The position numbers and the translations under genes were made by a program. From Caldisericia bacterium (GTDB lineage: Bacteria; Caldisericota; Caldisericia; B22-G15), in contig JASEFN010000002.1 in NCBI GenBank assembly GCA_030018355.1, positions 110,699-174,698 on the forward strand: a DNA stretch of 64,000 nt. Reading direction: 5' to 3'. This document shows positions 26,173 to 29,929 of this stretch, one piece after another. The notes beneath the pieces are model-generated. The model ran no database searches and was not told where the DNA came from. It saw only the letters and a list, made by a program, of their open reading frames with translations. Numbering within the stretch: position 1 is the stretch's first letter; every line of letters begins with the position of its first letter.

Positions 26173-26690
26173 ATTTCTTTATCCTCTTTCTTTTTAATAA
26201 TATCTATCATAAATTTTGAAATTTCATCAAAGTTTAAATCAGTTAAATTTATTATTTCTACATTCTTATATTTAATTTTCATAAAATTTATCTCATCTTT
26301 AATCTTAAGCGCCTCTTCTTTTTTGAGAATAAATTTTGTTGATAAAATATATATTTTATTGTAATTTGAATTTATAGCGTTTTCTATAGAATTAATAAGG
26401 TCAGGTTCACAATAGTCTAAAAATGAATAAAAAGTTATAATTTTATAATTTAAAGTGATAAAATTACTTAAATCAATTAATGCATGATAATATTCATCAT
26501 TTCTAAAATTTCTATCCCAAGTGTTAAGTTTTATTTTAAGTTCTTCAAATCTTTTTCTTTCATCTTCATTTAAATAGAGGCTTGATAGAATTTTAGATTT
26601 AAGATTTAAAAATTCATATAAATCTCCTTTGGGAAAATCTGAGGGAATTCCACCTTCTCCAATAATTATAAGACAAGCCTCTTTATTCAT
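26169..26690 (-). CDS. CbiX/sirohydrochlorin-chelatase-like protein lacking metal-binding histidines
   Basis: A 173-residue protein. The opening CLIIIGEGGIPSDFPKGDLYEFL aligns by eye with the CbiX-type opening (VGHGG-P-D-P), and the later ITFYSFLDYCEPDLINSIENAI aligns with the family's YNEFCAP segment. The histidine of GHGG is Glu here, and the family's second His (in GG-HSE) is replaced by a Lys/Glu-rich run. Chelatase activity is therefore doubtful; a divergent or regulatory role is possible. It overlaps YjbQ by 8 nt and the AEC gene by 4 nt. The assignment is by pattern only. Confidence 0.5.
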   Translation of the reverse strand: MNKEACLIIIGEGGIPSDFPKGDLYEFLNLKSKILSSLYLNEDERKRFEELKIKLNTWDRNFRNDEYYHALIDLSNFITLNYKIITFYSFLDYCEPDLINSIENAINSNYNKIYILSTKFILKKEEALKIKDEINFMKIKYKNVEIINLTDLNFDEISKFMIDIIKKKEDKEI

Positions 26691-27087
26691 TTTTTAAAAT
26701 TTTTAAATATACTTTTCTTTCTCTTGGTCCATCAAATTCAAGAAAAAAGATCCCTTGCCATGTTCCAAGAATAACTCTTCCATCTTCTATTAAAAGTTGA
26801 TGAGATATTCCAAATATGGATGATTTTATGTGAGAATCAGCATTTCCTTCAAGATGCTTATAATTTGATGATCGTGGAACAAGTTCTGAGGCTTTATTTA
26901 AAATATCTTCAATAACACTTGGATCTGCATTTTCATTTATTGTTAAACCCGCTGTTGTATGAGGTACATAAATAAAAAGAACTCCATCTCTAACTTCACT
27001 CTCTTTGACAAATTCTAAAACTTGGTCTGTTATATCTATTGCTTCAACTCTTTTTCTTGATTTAATATACAAAACCTTCGTTTTCAT
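26683..27087 (-). CDS. YjbQ/UPF0047 family protein (secondary thiamine-phosphate synthase type)
   Basis: A 134-residue single-domain protein covering the full family length. It has VLYIKSRKR at the start, then FIYVPHTTAGLTINENADPSV, the SNYKHLEGNADSHIKSSI segment with conserved His and Asp residues, and a final GTWQGIFFLEFDGPRERKVYLKIL. Homologues show weak thiamine-phosphate synthase activity; the true role is unclear. The start lies inside the end of the upstream HD-GYP gene (26-nt overlap). Confidence 0.9.
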   Translation of the reverse strand: MKTKVLYIKSRKRVEAIDITDQVLEFVKESEVRDGVLFIYVPHTTAGLTINENADPSVIEDILNKASELVPRSSNYKHLEGNADSHIKSSIFGISHQLLIEDGRVILGTWQGIFFLEFDGPRERKVYLKILKNE

Positions 27088-27643
27088 CTTCTATTGTTTT
27101 TAAAACCTCTATTGCTTTGTTAACAATCTCTTCTTTAAATTTTATATTTTTAAGAGACTCTAACTCTTTTATAAGTGAAGAAATTGTTTTATTTGTTGCA
27201 TAATTTCTTCTATTTAAATTTGCTTCAATATAATCTGCAATAGAAACAATTTGTGCTTCAATAGGAATTTTGTCTCCTTTTAAACCAAAAGGGTAACCCA
27301 TACCATTTGCCCATTCATGATGTAATAATACATAATTTGCTATATCTTTTAATAATTCACTTCTTGAAATTATTTTATATCCAACCTCAGGATGTTTTTT
27401 TATTATTTCAAATTCATCTTCTCTTAATTTAGATGGTTTAAATAATATTTCCTCTTTTATTGAAATTTTTCCAATATCATGAAGAAGTGCTGCAATTTCT
27501 ATGTCTTTTATTTTATCTTCTTCGTTGAAAAATTTTGATGCGATTAATTTAGAATAAAAACTAACTCCTTTAGAGTGTTCAAATAGTTCTTCATCTTTTA
27601 CTTTTATAGTTTCAAGGAGCATTTTAATTAATTCTTCTTTCAA
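27062..27643 (-). CDS. HD-GYP domain phosphodiesterase (C-terminal part of a longer frameshifted gene)
   Basis: The 193-residue segment holds an HD-GYP domain: HSKGVSFYSKL, the metal motif LLHDIGK, EHP-like KKHPEVGY, LLHHEWANGMGYPFGL (the GYP element) and a final helix. By family knowledge it hydrolyses cyclic-di-GMP or a related nucleotide. The first canonical start is a TTG at 27643 without a good Shine-Dalgarno. The same frame stays open for about 100 codons further upstream and encodes plausible protein, so the real gene is probably longer (see the next entry). Confidence 0.85.
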   Translation of the reverse strand: MKEELIKMLLETIKVKDEELFEHSKGVSFYSKLIASKFFNEEDKIKDIEIAALLHDIGKISIKEEILFKPSKLREDEFEIIKKHPEVGYKIISRSELLKDIANYVLLHHEWANGMGYPFGLKGDKIPIEAQIVSIADYIEANLNRRNYATNKTISSLIKELESLKNIKFKEEIVNKAIEVLKTIEDENEGFVY

Positions 27644-27968
27644 TTGTATATTAGATTGAAATATTACTTTATCAAAACTATTGAGTGTGCTTGTATTTAA
27701 ATAACTTATATTTAAATCTTCATTCTCTGAATAAGAATCAAGAATTAATTTAACAAAAAACTTTAAAACAAAAAGTTCCTTTTCATTAAAATCTTCAACC
27801 CTTGATGCTTCAAAAAATGTATTTTCATCAATTTGAATTTTATATGTAAAAAAATTATTTAATTTTTCTCCAATAGTTATACTACCATTTTTTGTTTTAA
27901 TGGAGATGTAATCAAGTTCTAAAAATTTTTTTAAAGAATTTTGCCTCTCTCCTTAATATATCAATCAT
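27644..27968 (-). other. Probable N-terminal part of the HD-GYP gene, separated by a frameshift at a 7-base T/A run
   Basis: Upstream of TTG 27643 the HD-GYP frame reads on through residues such as KLNNFFTYKIQIDENTFFEA to an in-frame stop near 27953, with no ATG, GTG or TTG. An ATG at 27968 in another frame encodes MIDILRREAKFFKK and then meets a run of seven A (top strand T, 27926-27932). Removing one base there joins the two frames into MIDILRREAKFFKKFLELDY... and a continuous protein of about 300 residues. It may be a sequencing error, a true mutation or programmed slippage. The segment resembles no family I recognise. Confidence 0.55.
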
Positions 27969-28034
27969 ATCAATTAGTATCTACAACTTTTCATATTATA
28001 ACATAAAATTTTATAAAATGAATTTAGAGGAAAT

Positions 28035-29327
28035 ATGAAAGAAAATTTTAATATAGAAGATATAAAACTTACTTATAAATTATTAAATCATAAAGGTCCA
28101 ACTGAATTAAGGATGCTAAAAGAGACTTTATATCCAATTGTTAAATTTGTTAAAAGTGAAGAAAAGTTTTTAGAACTTTGTCTAAATTTCAATGAAAAAA
28201 GAAATATATATGTTGGTATTAGAGATAGAAGGGAAGATATTAGATATCCAGCAAAAAAAGAAGATATTGTTGGACTTAACTTAACAGTTATTGATATTGA
28301 TCCATTAAGACCAAAAAATTTACCCTCCAACGAAGAGGAACTTAATAGAGCAATTTTTTTATCAGAAAAAATAAAAAATTTCTTTATAAATTTAAATTTC
28401 AAACCTCCATTTAGAGCCATGACAGGAAATGGGGTATCTCTCTTTTTTGTTTTACCATATTTTTTTATAAATGATGAAAATAGATATGATGTTGAAGAGT
28501 CTCTTCTTTGGTTTGAGAATTTTATAAGAGATAAATTTAAGAAAGAAATAGAAGAACTCAATTTAAAAATTGATAATATGTATGATCTTCCAAGAATAGT
28601 TAAAGTTATTGGAACAAAAAGTATTAAAGGTATAGAAAGTGAAGATAGGCCCCATAGAGTATCATATTGGATTGATAAACCTTTTTCAAGAGATGAAGAT
28701 AGTTCTCTTTTAAATTTTATTTTAAACAGAGGGATAGAAAGGAAAGAGTTATTAAAACCAATTTGGCTTATGCAACCAATACCATATTTTGGTGAAAAAT
28801 TAAATGGTGAATGGATAGTTGAGCCAAAAATAGATGGATGGAGATTAGAGATAATTAAAGAAAAAGGAAAAGTTTTCTTTTTTGGTAGAAGATTGGAAAA
28901 AAATCCTGATTGGAGTAATAAATTAAAGATCTCGAAATCTCTTTTTGATAATATTCCTGATGGAACAATTTTAGATTGTGAACTTTATTCTGATAAAGGG
29001 AGAAGATATATTCCATCTCTTTTTTCTGGAACTAATAAAGCGAAGCCTATAATTTATGTTTTTGATATTATCTATTATAAATATGAATTTTTAGGAAATT
29101 TTCCTCTTTACAAAAGAAAAGAAATTCTTAATTGTTTAAATTTTGGTGAAGGAGTAGAAATTTTAAAGTATAAAAGACTCACTGATTTAGAAAAAGATTT
29201 AAGAGAAAGCATTATATCTGGAAATGAAGGGATTGTAATAAAAGAGATAAATAGTAGGTATATTGTTGGAAAAGATGGGCCAATTGCTACTTTATATTGG
29301 AAAAAAATAAAAGGAATAAGGAGGTAA
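28035..29327 (+). CDS. Primase-like domain fused to ATP-dependent DNA ligase adenylation domain
   Basis: A 430-residue fusion. The N-terminal part (about 50-235) resembles archaeo-eukaryotic primase-type folds of plasmids and phages: a NIYVGIRDRR segment, LTVIDIDP with paired Asp metal ligands, and FRAMTGNGVSLFFVLP. The C-terminal part (about 250-428) is a minimal ATP-dependent ligase nucleotidyltransferase domain. It has motif I EPKIDGWR near residue 265 with the adenylated Lys, motif III TILDCELY, motif IV EGIVIKE and motif V YWKKIK. No OB-fold domain follows. It could fill and seal gaps in DNA (LigD-like in concept), but the architecture differs from LigD and no Ku gene is near. Shine-Dalgarno AGAGGAAAT is good. 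The gene after it is translationally coupled. Confidence 0.72.
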   Translation: MKENFNIEDIKLTYKLLNHKGPTELRMLKETLYPIVKFVKSEEKFLELCLNFNEKRNIYVGIRDRREDIRYPAKKEDIVGLNLTVIDIDPLRPKNLPSNEEELNRAIFLSEKIKNFFINLNFKPPFRAMTGNGVSLFFVLPYFFINDENRYDVEESLLWFENFIRDKFKKEIEELNLKIDNMYDLPRIVKVIGTKSIKGIESEDRPHRVSYWIDKPFSRDEDSSLLNFILNRGIERKELLKPIWLMQPIPYFGEKLNGEWIVEPKIDGWRLEIIKEKGKVFFFGRRLEKNPDWSNKLKISKSLFDNIPDGTILDCELYSDKGRRYIPSLFSGTNKAKPIIYVFDIIYYKYEFLGNFPLYKRKEILNCLNFGEGVEILKYKRLTDLEKDLRESIISGNEGIVIKEINSRYIVGKDGPIATLYWKKIKGIRR

Positions 29328-29330
29328 AAA

Positions 29331-29834
29331 ATGGCAGTTGGAAGATTTCAAGTTATGGCAACACTTCAGGCAGCAAGAGCATATGTTTTGGGAAAAGACA
29401 TAAAAACCGCTAAAAGTTTTGGATTAAATAGAGCAATTTTTTATGCAGCAGCAAAAAAAGGTTTCAAGGGTGCAAAAGAGATAACTCCAACAGAAATTAT
29501 CCTAAAGAGAAAAAAAGTGAGTGAAGATAAATTAAAAAAGATAAGAGAATCTTTTAAAATTGATTCAATTGGAGATGAGATTGCTTATGCAGTAGAAATT
29601 GACGGAAGGGTTTATTACACAATTGGGGGAGAAGTTCAAACTGAAGAAGATTTTGAAAAAGAGATTGAAAGAAGATTTAAGGGTAAGTTTGAAAAAGCAT
29701 GGCAAGAGGCAATTGAAATTGTTTCATCTTATGACAAAGGGGTTCTTTTATCACAAAGATATTTTTTTGAAGTTGTTTATAAACCACGAAGAGATGAGTT
29801 AAGCAAAAAATGGAGTGAAATGATAGAAGAGTAA
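29331..29834 (+). CDS. Unknown protein coupled to the primase-ligase fusion
   Basis: A 167-residue soluble protein I do not recognise. It opens with MAVGRFQVMATLQAARAYVLGK, an alpha-helical stretch rich in Ala, and a NRAIFYAAAKKGFKGAKEI segment. A short beta region (EIAYAVEIDGRVYYTIGGEVQ) and a charged helical end follow. Its Shine-Dalgarno (AAGGAGGT) lies inside the last codons of the primase-ligase gene, and the gap is 3 nt, so the two are made together and may act together. The basic, compact character would fit nucleic acid binding, but that is a guess. Confidence 0.75.
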   Translation: MAVGRFQVMATLQAARAYVLGKDIKTAKSFGLNRAIFYAAAKKGFKGAKEITPTEIILKRKKVSEDKLKKIRESFKIDSIGDEIAYAVEIDGRVYYTIGGEVQTEEDFEKEIERRFKGKFEKAWQEAIEIVSSYDKGVLLSQRYFFEVVYKPRRDELSKKWSEMIEE

Positions 29835-29902: not shown

Positions 29903-29929
29903 TTAGCACTCTATATATTAAAGTGCTAA
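29903..29929 (+). promoter_or_regulatory. CIRCE operator (HrcA binding site)
   Basis: TTAGCACTC, nine bases, then AAGTGCTAA. The consensus is TTAGCACTC-N9-GAGTGCTAA, so one base of the right arm differs. It lies between the promoter and the groES start and indicates HrcA-type heat-shock repression; hrcA itself is not in the window. Confidence 0.93.

Follow-up and report, generated by a model that had tools for sequence, protein, structure and literature searches.

The window, a 64,000-nucleotide stretch of contig JASEFN010000002.1 from the genome of a heat-loving Caldisericia bacterium, contains on its forward strand an open reading frame (ORF) at positions 28035-29327 whose 430-residue product combines, in one chain, a phage-type archaeo-eukaryotic primase (AEP) domain and the adenylation domain of an ATP-dependent ligase. 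An earlier note on this DNA had described such a single primase-like and ligase chain, and the ORF was recovered at exactly these coordinates. The AEP-like N-terminal half (28035-28739, forward strand, residues 1-235) was recognised by tblastn, alignment, invariant Asp residues, AF2 modelling and viral fold matches, and the ligase adenylation domain, which is OB-less (28758-29324, forward strand, residues 242-430), by Pfam, invariant motifs and Foldseek. A second gene (29331-29834, forward strand), encoding a 167 aa protein that was modelled with AF2 and is referred to here as the partner, starts 3 bp past the fusion stop codon with a strong ribosome-binding site, and adjoins the ligase gene in Caldisericota and in many phyla.

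Behind the partner gene, a CIRCE-like inverted repeat (TTAGCACT...AGTGCTAA, 29903-29929) separates a perfect TTGACA-16-TATAAT promoter from groES (29945); with its own promoter and this repeat, groESL is separately promoted, and from these elements it looks HrcA-regulated. Opposite the fusion, an HD-domain gene (27062-27990, reverse strand) encodes 193 aa in the window versus 333 aa in the orthologue of the Caldisericota genome G003; the N-terminal region of the window gene displays a same-frame match up to stops near its start, and the likely start (MIDIL) is found in another frame, which suggests that the gene carries a small frameshift. The HD protein is adjoined by a UPF0047 family protein (PF01894, 9.9e-43) at 26683-27087 (reverse strand).

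Of the genomes searched, only seven from Caldisericota (G000, G003, G018, G033, G047, G051 and G053) and one MAG labelled Aminicenantes (L022) carry the AEP-ligase fusion. This search for the architecture together with its downstream gene had been proposed in the earlier note as a check, and it revealed that the partner gene is conserved beside the ligase. Structure prediction, also proposed there, was carried out with AF2 over the full fusion chain and yielded a mean pLDDT of 91.5 and a pTM of 0.65. Comparison with the closest relative gave a dN/dS of 0.22 in the AEP half and of 0.17 in the ligase half, thus selection acts on both halves of the fusion. In Caldisericum sp. CG2_30_36_11 (G033; L004, L012 and L017), the first ~60 codons of the fusion gene are out of frame, a change that from the sequence is either a frameshift or an assembly error. 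In the part of the literature covered, neither an AEP-ligase fusion nor an OB-less cellular ligase has been described before.

The AEP half has no match in Pfam. Searches with tblastn related it to phage primase-helicase genes (E = 1e-10), the best of which encodes an AEP-half-like domain followed by a DnaB_C helicase, and alignment of the AEP half with these proteins revealed a common pattern consisting of D-x-D, GNG, D..R...GT..KG and RPxRxS. The AF2 model is confident in this region (pLDDT >90 across most blocks), and its viral Foldseek matches include, besides many ligases, an AAA-domain protein, 'Replication protein B' (RepB) and DUF927 proteins; in the PDB, all 50 matches listed for the fusion model were ligases, with no solved AEP among those listed, and the A5 profile retrieved chance matches only (gasdermin). 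Taken together, the tblastn homology, the shared motif pattern and the fold matches indicate that the AEP half is of the archaeo-eukaryotic primase type, and of the phage kind, not the LigD kind; the LigD POL family (PF21686) gave no significant match, with a best E of 0.12 in one of eight AEP members, which rules out the AEP half as LigD POL. The earlier note had been prepared to give up its primase reading if the N-terminal half adopted another fold, or if metal ligands were missing in homologues; the half finds its fold matches in phage replication proteins, and the ligands are invariant.

Since the nearest relatives of the AEP half are phage primase-helicases and the distribution is patchy, the locus could be read as what remains of a replication module from a mobile element, and the AEP half is indeed also related to an AEP-ATPase replication protein (L209) that has no ligase beside it. 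We nevertheless regard this origin as very improbable: searches of 2.9 million viral contigs returned one relative of the partner and none of the ligase or the AEP half, groESL adjoins the unit both in the window and in G003, and the genes are under purifying selection and display a host-like GC3. On the viral contig counts, a viral origin of the whole unit was rejected. Furthermore, the AEP half had no relatives in plasmids, and phage AEP queries found no matches in the viral contigs.

Motif I of the AEP half corresponds to VIDIDP (D87, D89), motif III to IDNMYDLPR (D180), and the flange RPHRVS is a candidate motif IV. The earlier description of this half as primase-like and metal-binding, which rested on VIDIDP and TGNG, stands for the metal ligands and requires correction at motif II. 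The three ligands D87, D89 and D180 are invariant in 8/8 fusions, and all eight stand-alone AEPs keep the motif III Asp and have a readable motif I DxD. At motif II, TGNG is followed by S, C or A and the His of AEPs is gone: the window sequence is TGNGVS, the fusions share TGNG[VTA][SCA], and the stand-alone copies carry C, A or Q at this position, so that the His is replaced by S/C/A/Q in 16/16 AEP members (8 fusions and 8 stand-alone), with the phage relatives L106 and L107 retaining it (SGNG[YF]H). This loss leaves the polymerase activity of the AEP half uncertain. It is therefore possible, and to us the less favoured reading, that the AEP half is a degenerate module for recognition of DNA ends or gaps, which targets the ligase and has no polymerase function, the system only sealing nicks; besides the missing His, this would agree with the lack of an AEP in most genomes that carry ligase and partner. 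Against such degeneration, the three metal-binding Asp residues are invariant and the half evolves at a dN/dS of 0.22. Moreover, the motif II His is a family-specific feature among AEPs, and some active AEPs such as PolpTN2 function without it, the motif IV Arg being essential there (PMC5862659). R208 of the fusion, which is invariant and followed by a hydrophobic residue, is a candidate counterpart of that Arg.

The C-terminal half matches Pfam DNA_ligase_A_M (PF01068) at 5.3e-20 over residues 255-415, and harbors motifs I (K265-x-D-G-x-R, here K265IDGWR, with K265 as nucleophile), Ia, III (D314-x-E316), IIIa (F343-D344), IV (E398-G...K403) and V (K424-x-K426), all invariant across 33 aligned homologues, in full agreement with its earlier description as a ligase adenylation half. 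The chain stops four residues past motif V, so that an OB domain, and motif VI with it, is missing, as had been claimed; the OB-less ligases found as stand-alone ORFs (about 190-230 aa) likewise stop at motif V in all phyla in which they were found. The fusion thus lacks the OB domain of core ATP-dependent DNA ligases, NT and OB domains being regarded as common to all DNA ligases (PMC8455567). The host genome also encodes a separate NAD+ LigA, which makes it unlikely that the fusion acts as the replicative ligase. Some RNA ligases are without an OB domain and AEPs often use rNTPs, and the ligase half does display a weak match to Pfam RNA_ligase (2.2e-5, below the cut-off); all of this could suit an RNA or RNA/DNA-hybrid ligase system for RNA repair, in which ribonucleotides would be added by the AEP and RNA bound by the partner. 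We consider such a role unlikely, given that the match to DNA_ligase_A_M is far stronger, that the nearest structures among the Foldseek matches listed are DNA ligases (3gde, E=4.6e-11), and that no RNA-processing gene recurs in the neighbourhood.

By sequence comparison, the most conserved element of the AEP/ligase/partner set is the partner encoded downstream of the fusion, a point missed in the earlier note. Its identity among relatives reaches 64-88% versus 46-78% for the fusion, and its dN/dS is 0.055. Two motifs, GRFQVM..LQAAR and SFGLNRAIFYAAAK, characterize the protein, and GRFQVM..LQAAR and S.GLNRAIFYA.AK are invariant and kept across bacteria and archaea. No meaningful match was found for it in Pfam, NCBIfam or PHROGs, nor any PDB match by sequence, and its confident AF2 model (pLDDT 91.1) retrieved no PDB structure at E <= 0.001 with Foldseek. 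The partner was also considered as an OB fold or a Ku-like protein, and both assignments were rejected, as no PDB fold match and no sequence match was obtained.

In order to place the partner in its genomic context, 84,980 genomes were scanned, which gave 230 matching stretches, and 80 loci were read. At 34 of the 41 bacterial partner loci an OB-less ligase was present, and for three more it was located elsewhere in the genome; in many bacterial phyla the ligase adjoining the partner is AEP-less and usually a stand-alone ORF. Within the 147 genomes of the WOR-3 phylum, 33 carry the ligase, 37 the partner and 32 both (Fisher p = 6e-26, uncorrected for phylogeny), and these pairs lie within 1.5 kb in 24 cases and are non-neighbours in 8, so that the coupling is not merely that of one operon inherited together. 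Stand-alone AEPs of the same family as that of the fusion occur in 7 of these 147 genomes, all ligase-positive (p = 1.7e-5, uncorrected for phylogeny), and one is also carried by G104, a genome outside this WOR-3 set. The evolutionary coupling of ligase and partner is thus well supported. Furthermore, the finding of AEP, ligase and partner in fused, adjacent or scattered form points to one set, with the ligase-partner pair as core and the AEP as an optional component; as most genomes with ligase and partner are devoid of the AEP, the core function must be something other than gap filling by the AEP.

In the tree of partner sequences, the fusion rows form one clade (92/88), and L006, a ligase-only version from the family to which the window itself belongs, groups apart from it. 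Beyond synteny within close relatives, no third recurring neighbour of the ligase-partner operon was found, and no glycosylase gene recurs nearby; directly after the stand-alone AEP of L198 comes an ORF (L198:2193-2801) with an HhH-like segment, GIGPVTTNIFLREL, for which Pfam gives no glycosylase match. In genome G064 (L037, contig C13, 17545-17742), a short, stop-containing remnant of an OB-less ligase accompanies the partner, and it is possible that in this genome the ligase was lost and the partner retained.

In archaea the partner occurs in a different setting. At 15 loci from Thermoproteota, Nitrososphaerota and their relatives, it forms the C-terminal domain of proteins of 450-515 aa, which begin with a PriS-like AEP that retains the WDID, SGxGxH and D motifs intact (L074-L097). 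This AEP, which matches PF01896 weakly (6e-4), is frequently found fused to the partner, has unfused relatives that are common in the same archaeal lineages, and appears to represent a family unnamed in Pfam. The archaeal fusion resembles the bacterial set in its partner domain, and differs from it in its intact WDID / SGxGxH motifs and in having no OB-less ligase. Direct profile-profile comparison of the bacterial AEP with the partner-fused archaeal AEP was insignificant, which indicates different AEP branches; to judge from these sequences, the archaeal fusion is an independent link between partner and AEP. Other archaea carry the partner alone, some with a related AEP elsewhere and many with neither an OB-less ligase nor a related AEP, their ligases being ordinary full-length enzymes, so that the partner may have other roles.

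With the integration of these findings, the AEP/ligase/partner set has the appearance of a DNA-sealing repair system not described before. The reading that we favour, with a probability of about 0.5, is a Ku-independent system for sealing DNA nicks or gaps, with the OB-less ligase and the partner as core and the AEP as an optional addition. According to its motifs, the ligase half would self-adenylate on K265, activate the 5'-phosphate and seal the nick, and the partner would bind nucleic acid or the ligase, doing the job usually carried out by the OB domain, although its predicted fold, which Foldseek indicates is not OB, speaks against the partner as an OB substitute. The AEP half would hold the 3' end or the gap and, if active despite the lost His, would add a few nucleotides before sealing, by analogy with LigC/Prim-PolC. 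A further-reaching proposal, which we advance only tentatively and hold to be rather doubtful, is that of a split DNA ligase, whose OB-less adenylation domain works only with the novel-fold partner closing around the nick, the partner also serving archaeal primase-polymerases and thereby acting as a general 3'-end or nick cofactor across both domains of life. A widespread clade of OB-less cellular ligases with a strongly conserved partner of unmatched fold would constitute a different solution to nick sealing. The ligase-partner set occurs for the most part in uncultured lineages that lack Ku and are often thermophilic, and through the partner, bacterial ligases are connected with archaeal primase-like enzymes, which provides a testable handle on a protein family without a name in the libraries searched.

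The earlier note had taken domain order and, by implication, the missing phosphoesterase (PE) to set the fusion apart from LigD, but mycobacterial LigD, too, begins with POL. Neither feature by itself separates the two, as the domain order of LigD varies and B. subtilis LigD is without PE (PMC8656161). The absences themselves, as claimed, were corroborated, the host genome encoding neither LigD_N phosphoesterase (PF13298) nor Ku, the latter also being absent from 30 of the 31 partner-bearing genomes searched (present in 1). The fusion resembles the LigD of NHEJ in carrying AEP and ligase in one chain, and is set apart from it by a phage-primase-like AEP, an OB-less ligase and a dedicated partner of novel fold, together with the lack of PE and Ku. 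A derived LigD acting in double-strand break end joining, with the small dedicated partner in the place of the missing Ku, would also account for the combination of AEP and ligase, and we judge it quite unlikely in view of the lack of a significant PF21686 match, of a phosphoesterase and of an OB domain on the ligase, and because the partner fold is unlike any PDB entry, Ku included.

The favoured nick- or gap-sealing system is closest in its proposed activity to the mycobacterial pair of Prim-PolC, which fills short gaps using ribonucleotides, and LigC, which seals them (PMC5663958). Both associate an AEP with an ATP-dependent ligase, are Ku-independent and are proposed to fill and seal short gaps, the mycobacterial system in BER gap repair; however, LigC possesses an OB domain, Prim-PolC belongs to the LigD-POL type and carries the His, and no such partner accompanies them. 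By the features tested, the fusion is thus a member of neither LigD nor LigC. With minimal ATP-dependent DNA ligases such as LigE and Chlorella virus ligase it shares a small size and the adenylation core, whereas both of these retain the OB domain that is absent throughout the ligase clade of the fusion. Finally, its AEP is homologous, by the four-part pattern described above, to that of phage AEP-DnaB primase-helicases, and loss of the motif II His is also known among PrimPol-PV1 AEPs, a likeness that does not establish PV1 membership; unlike either group, the fusion carries a ligase in place of a helicase, and belongs to a cellular genome, not to a mobile element.
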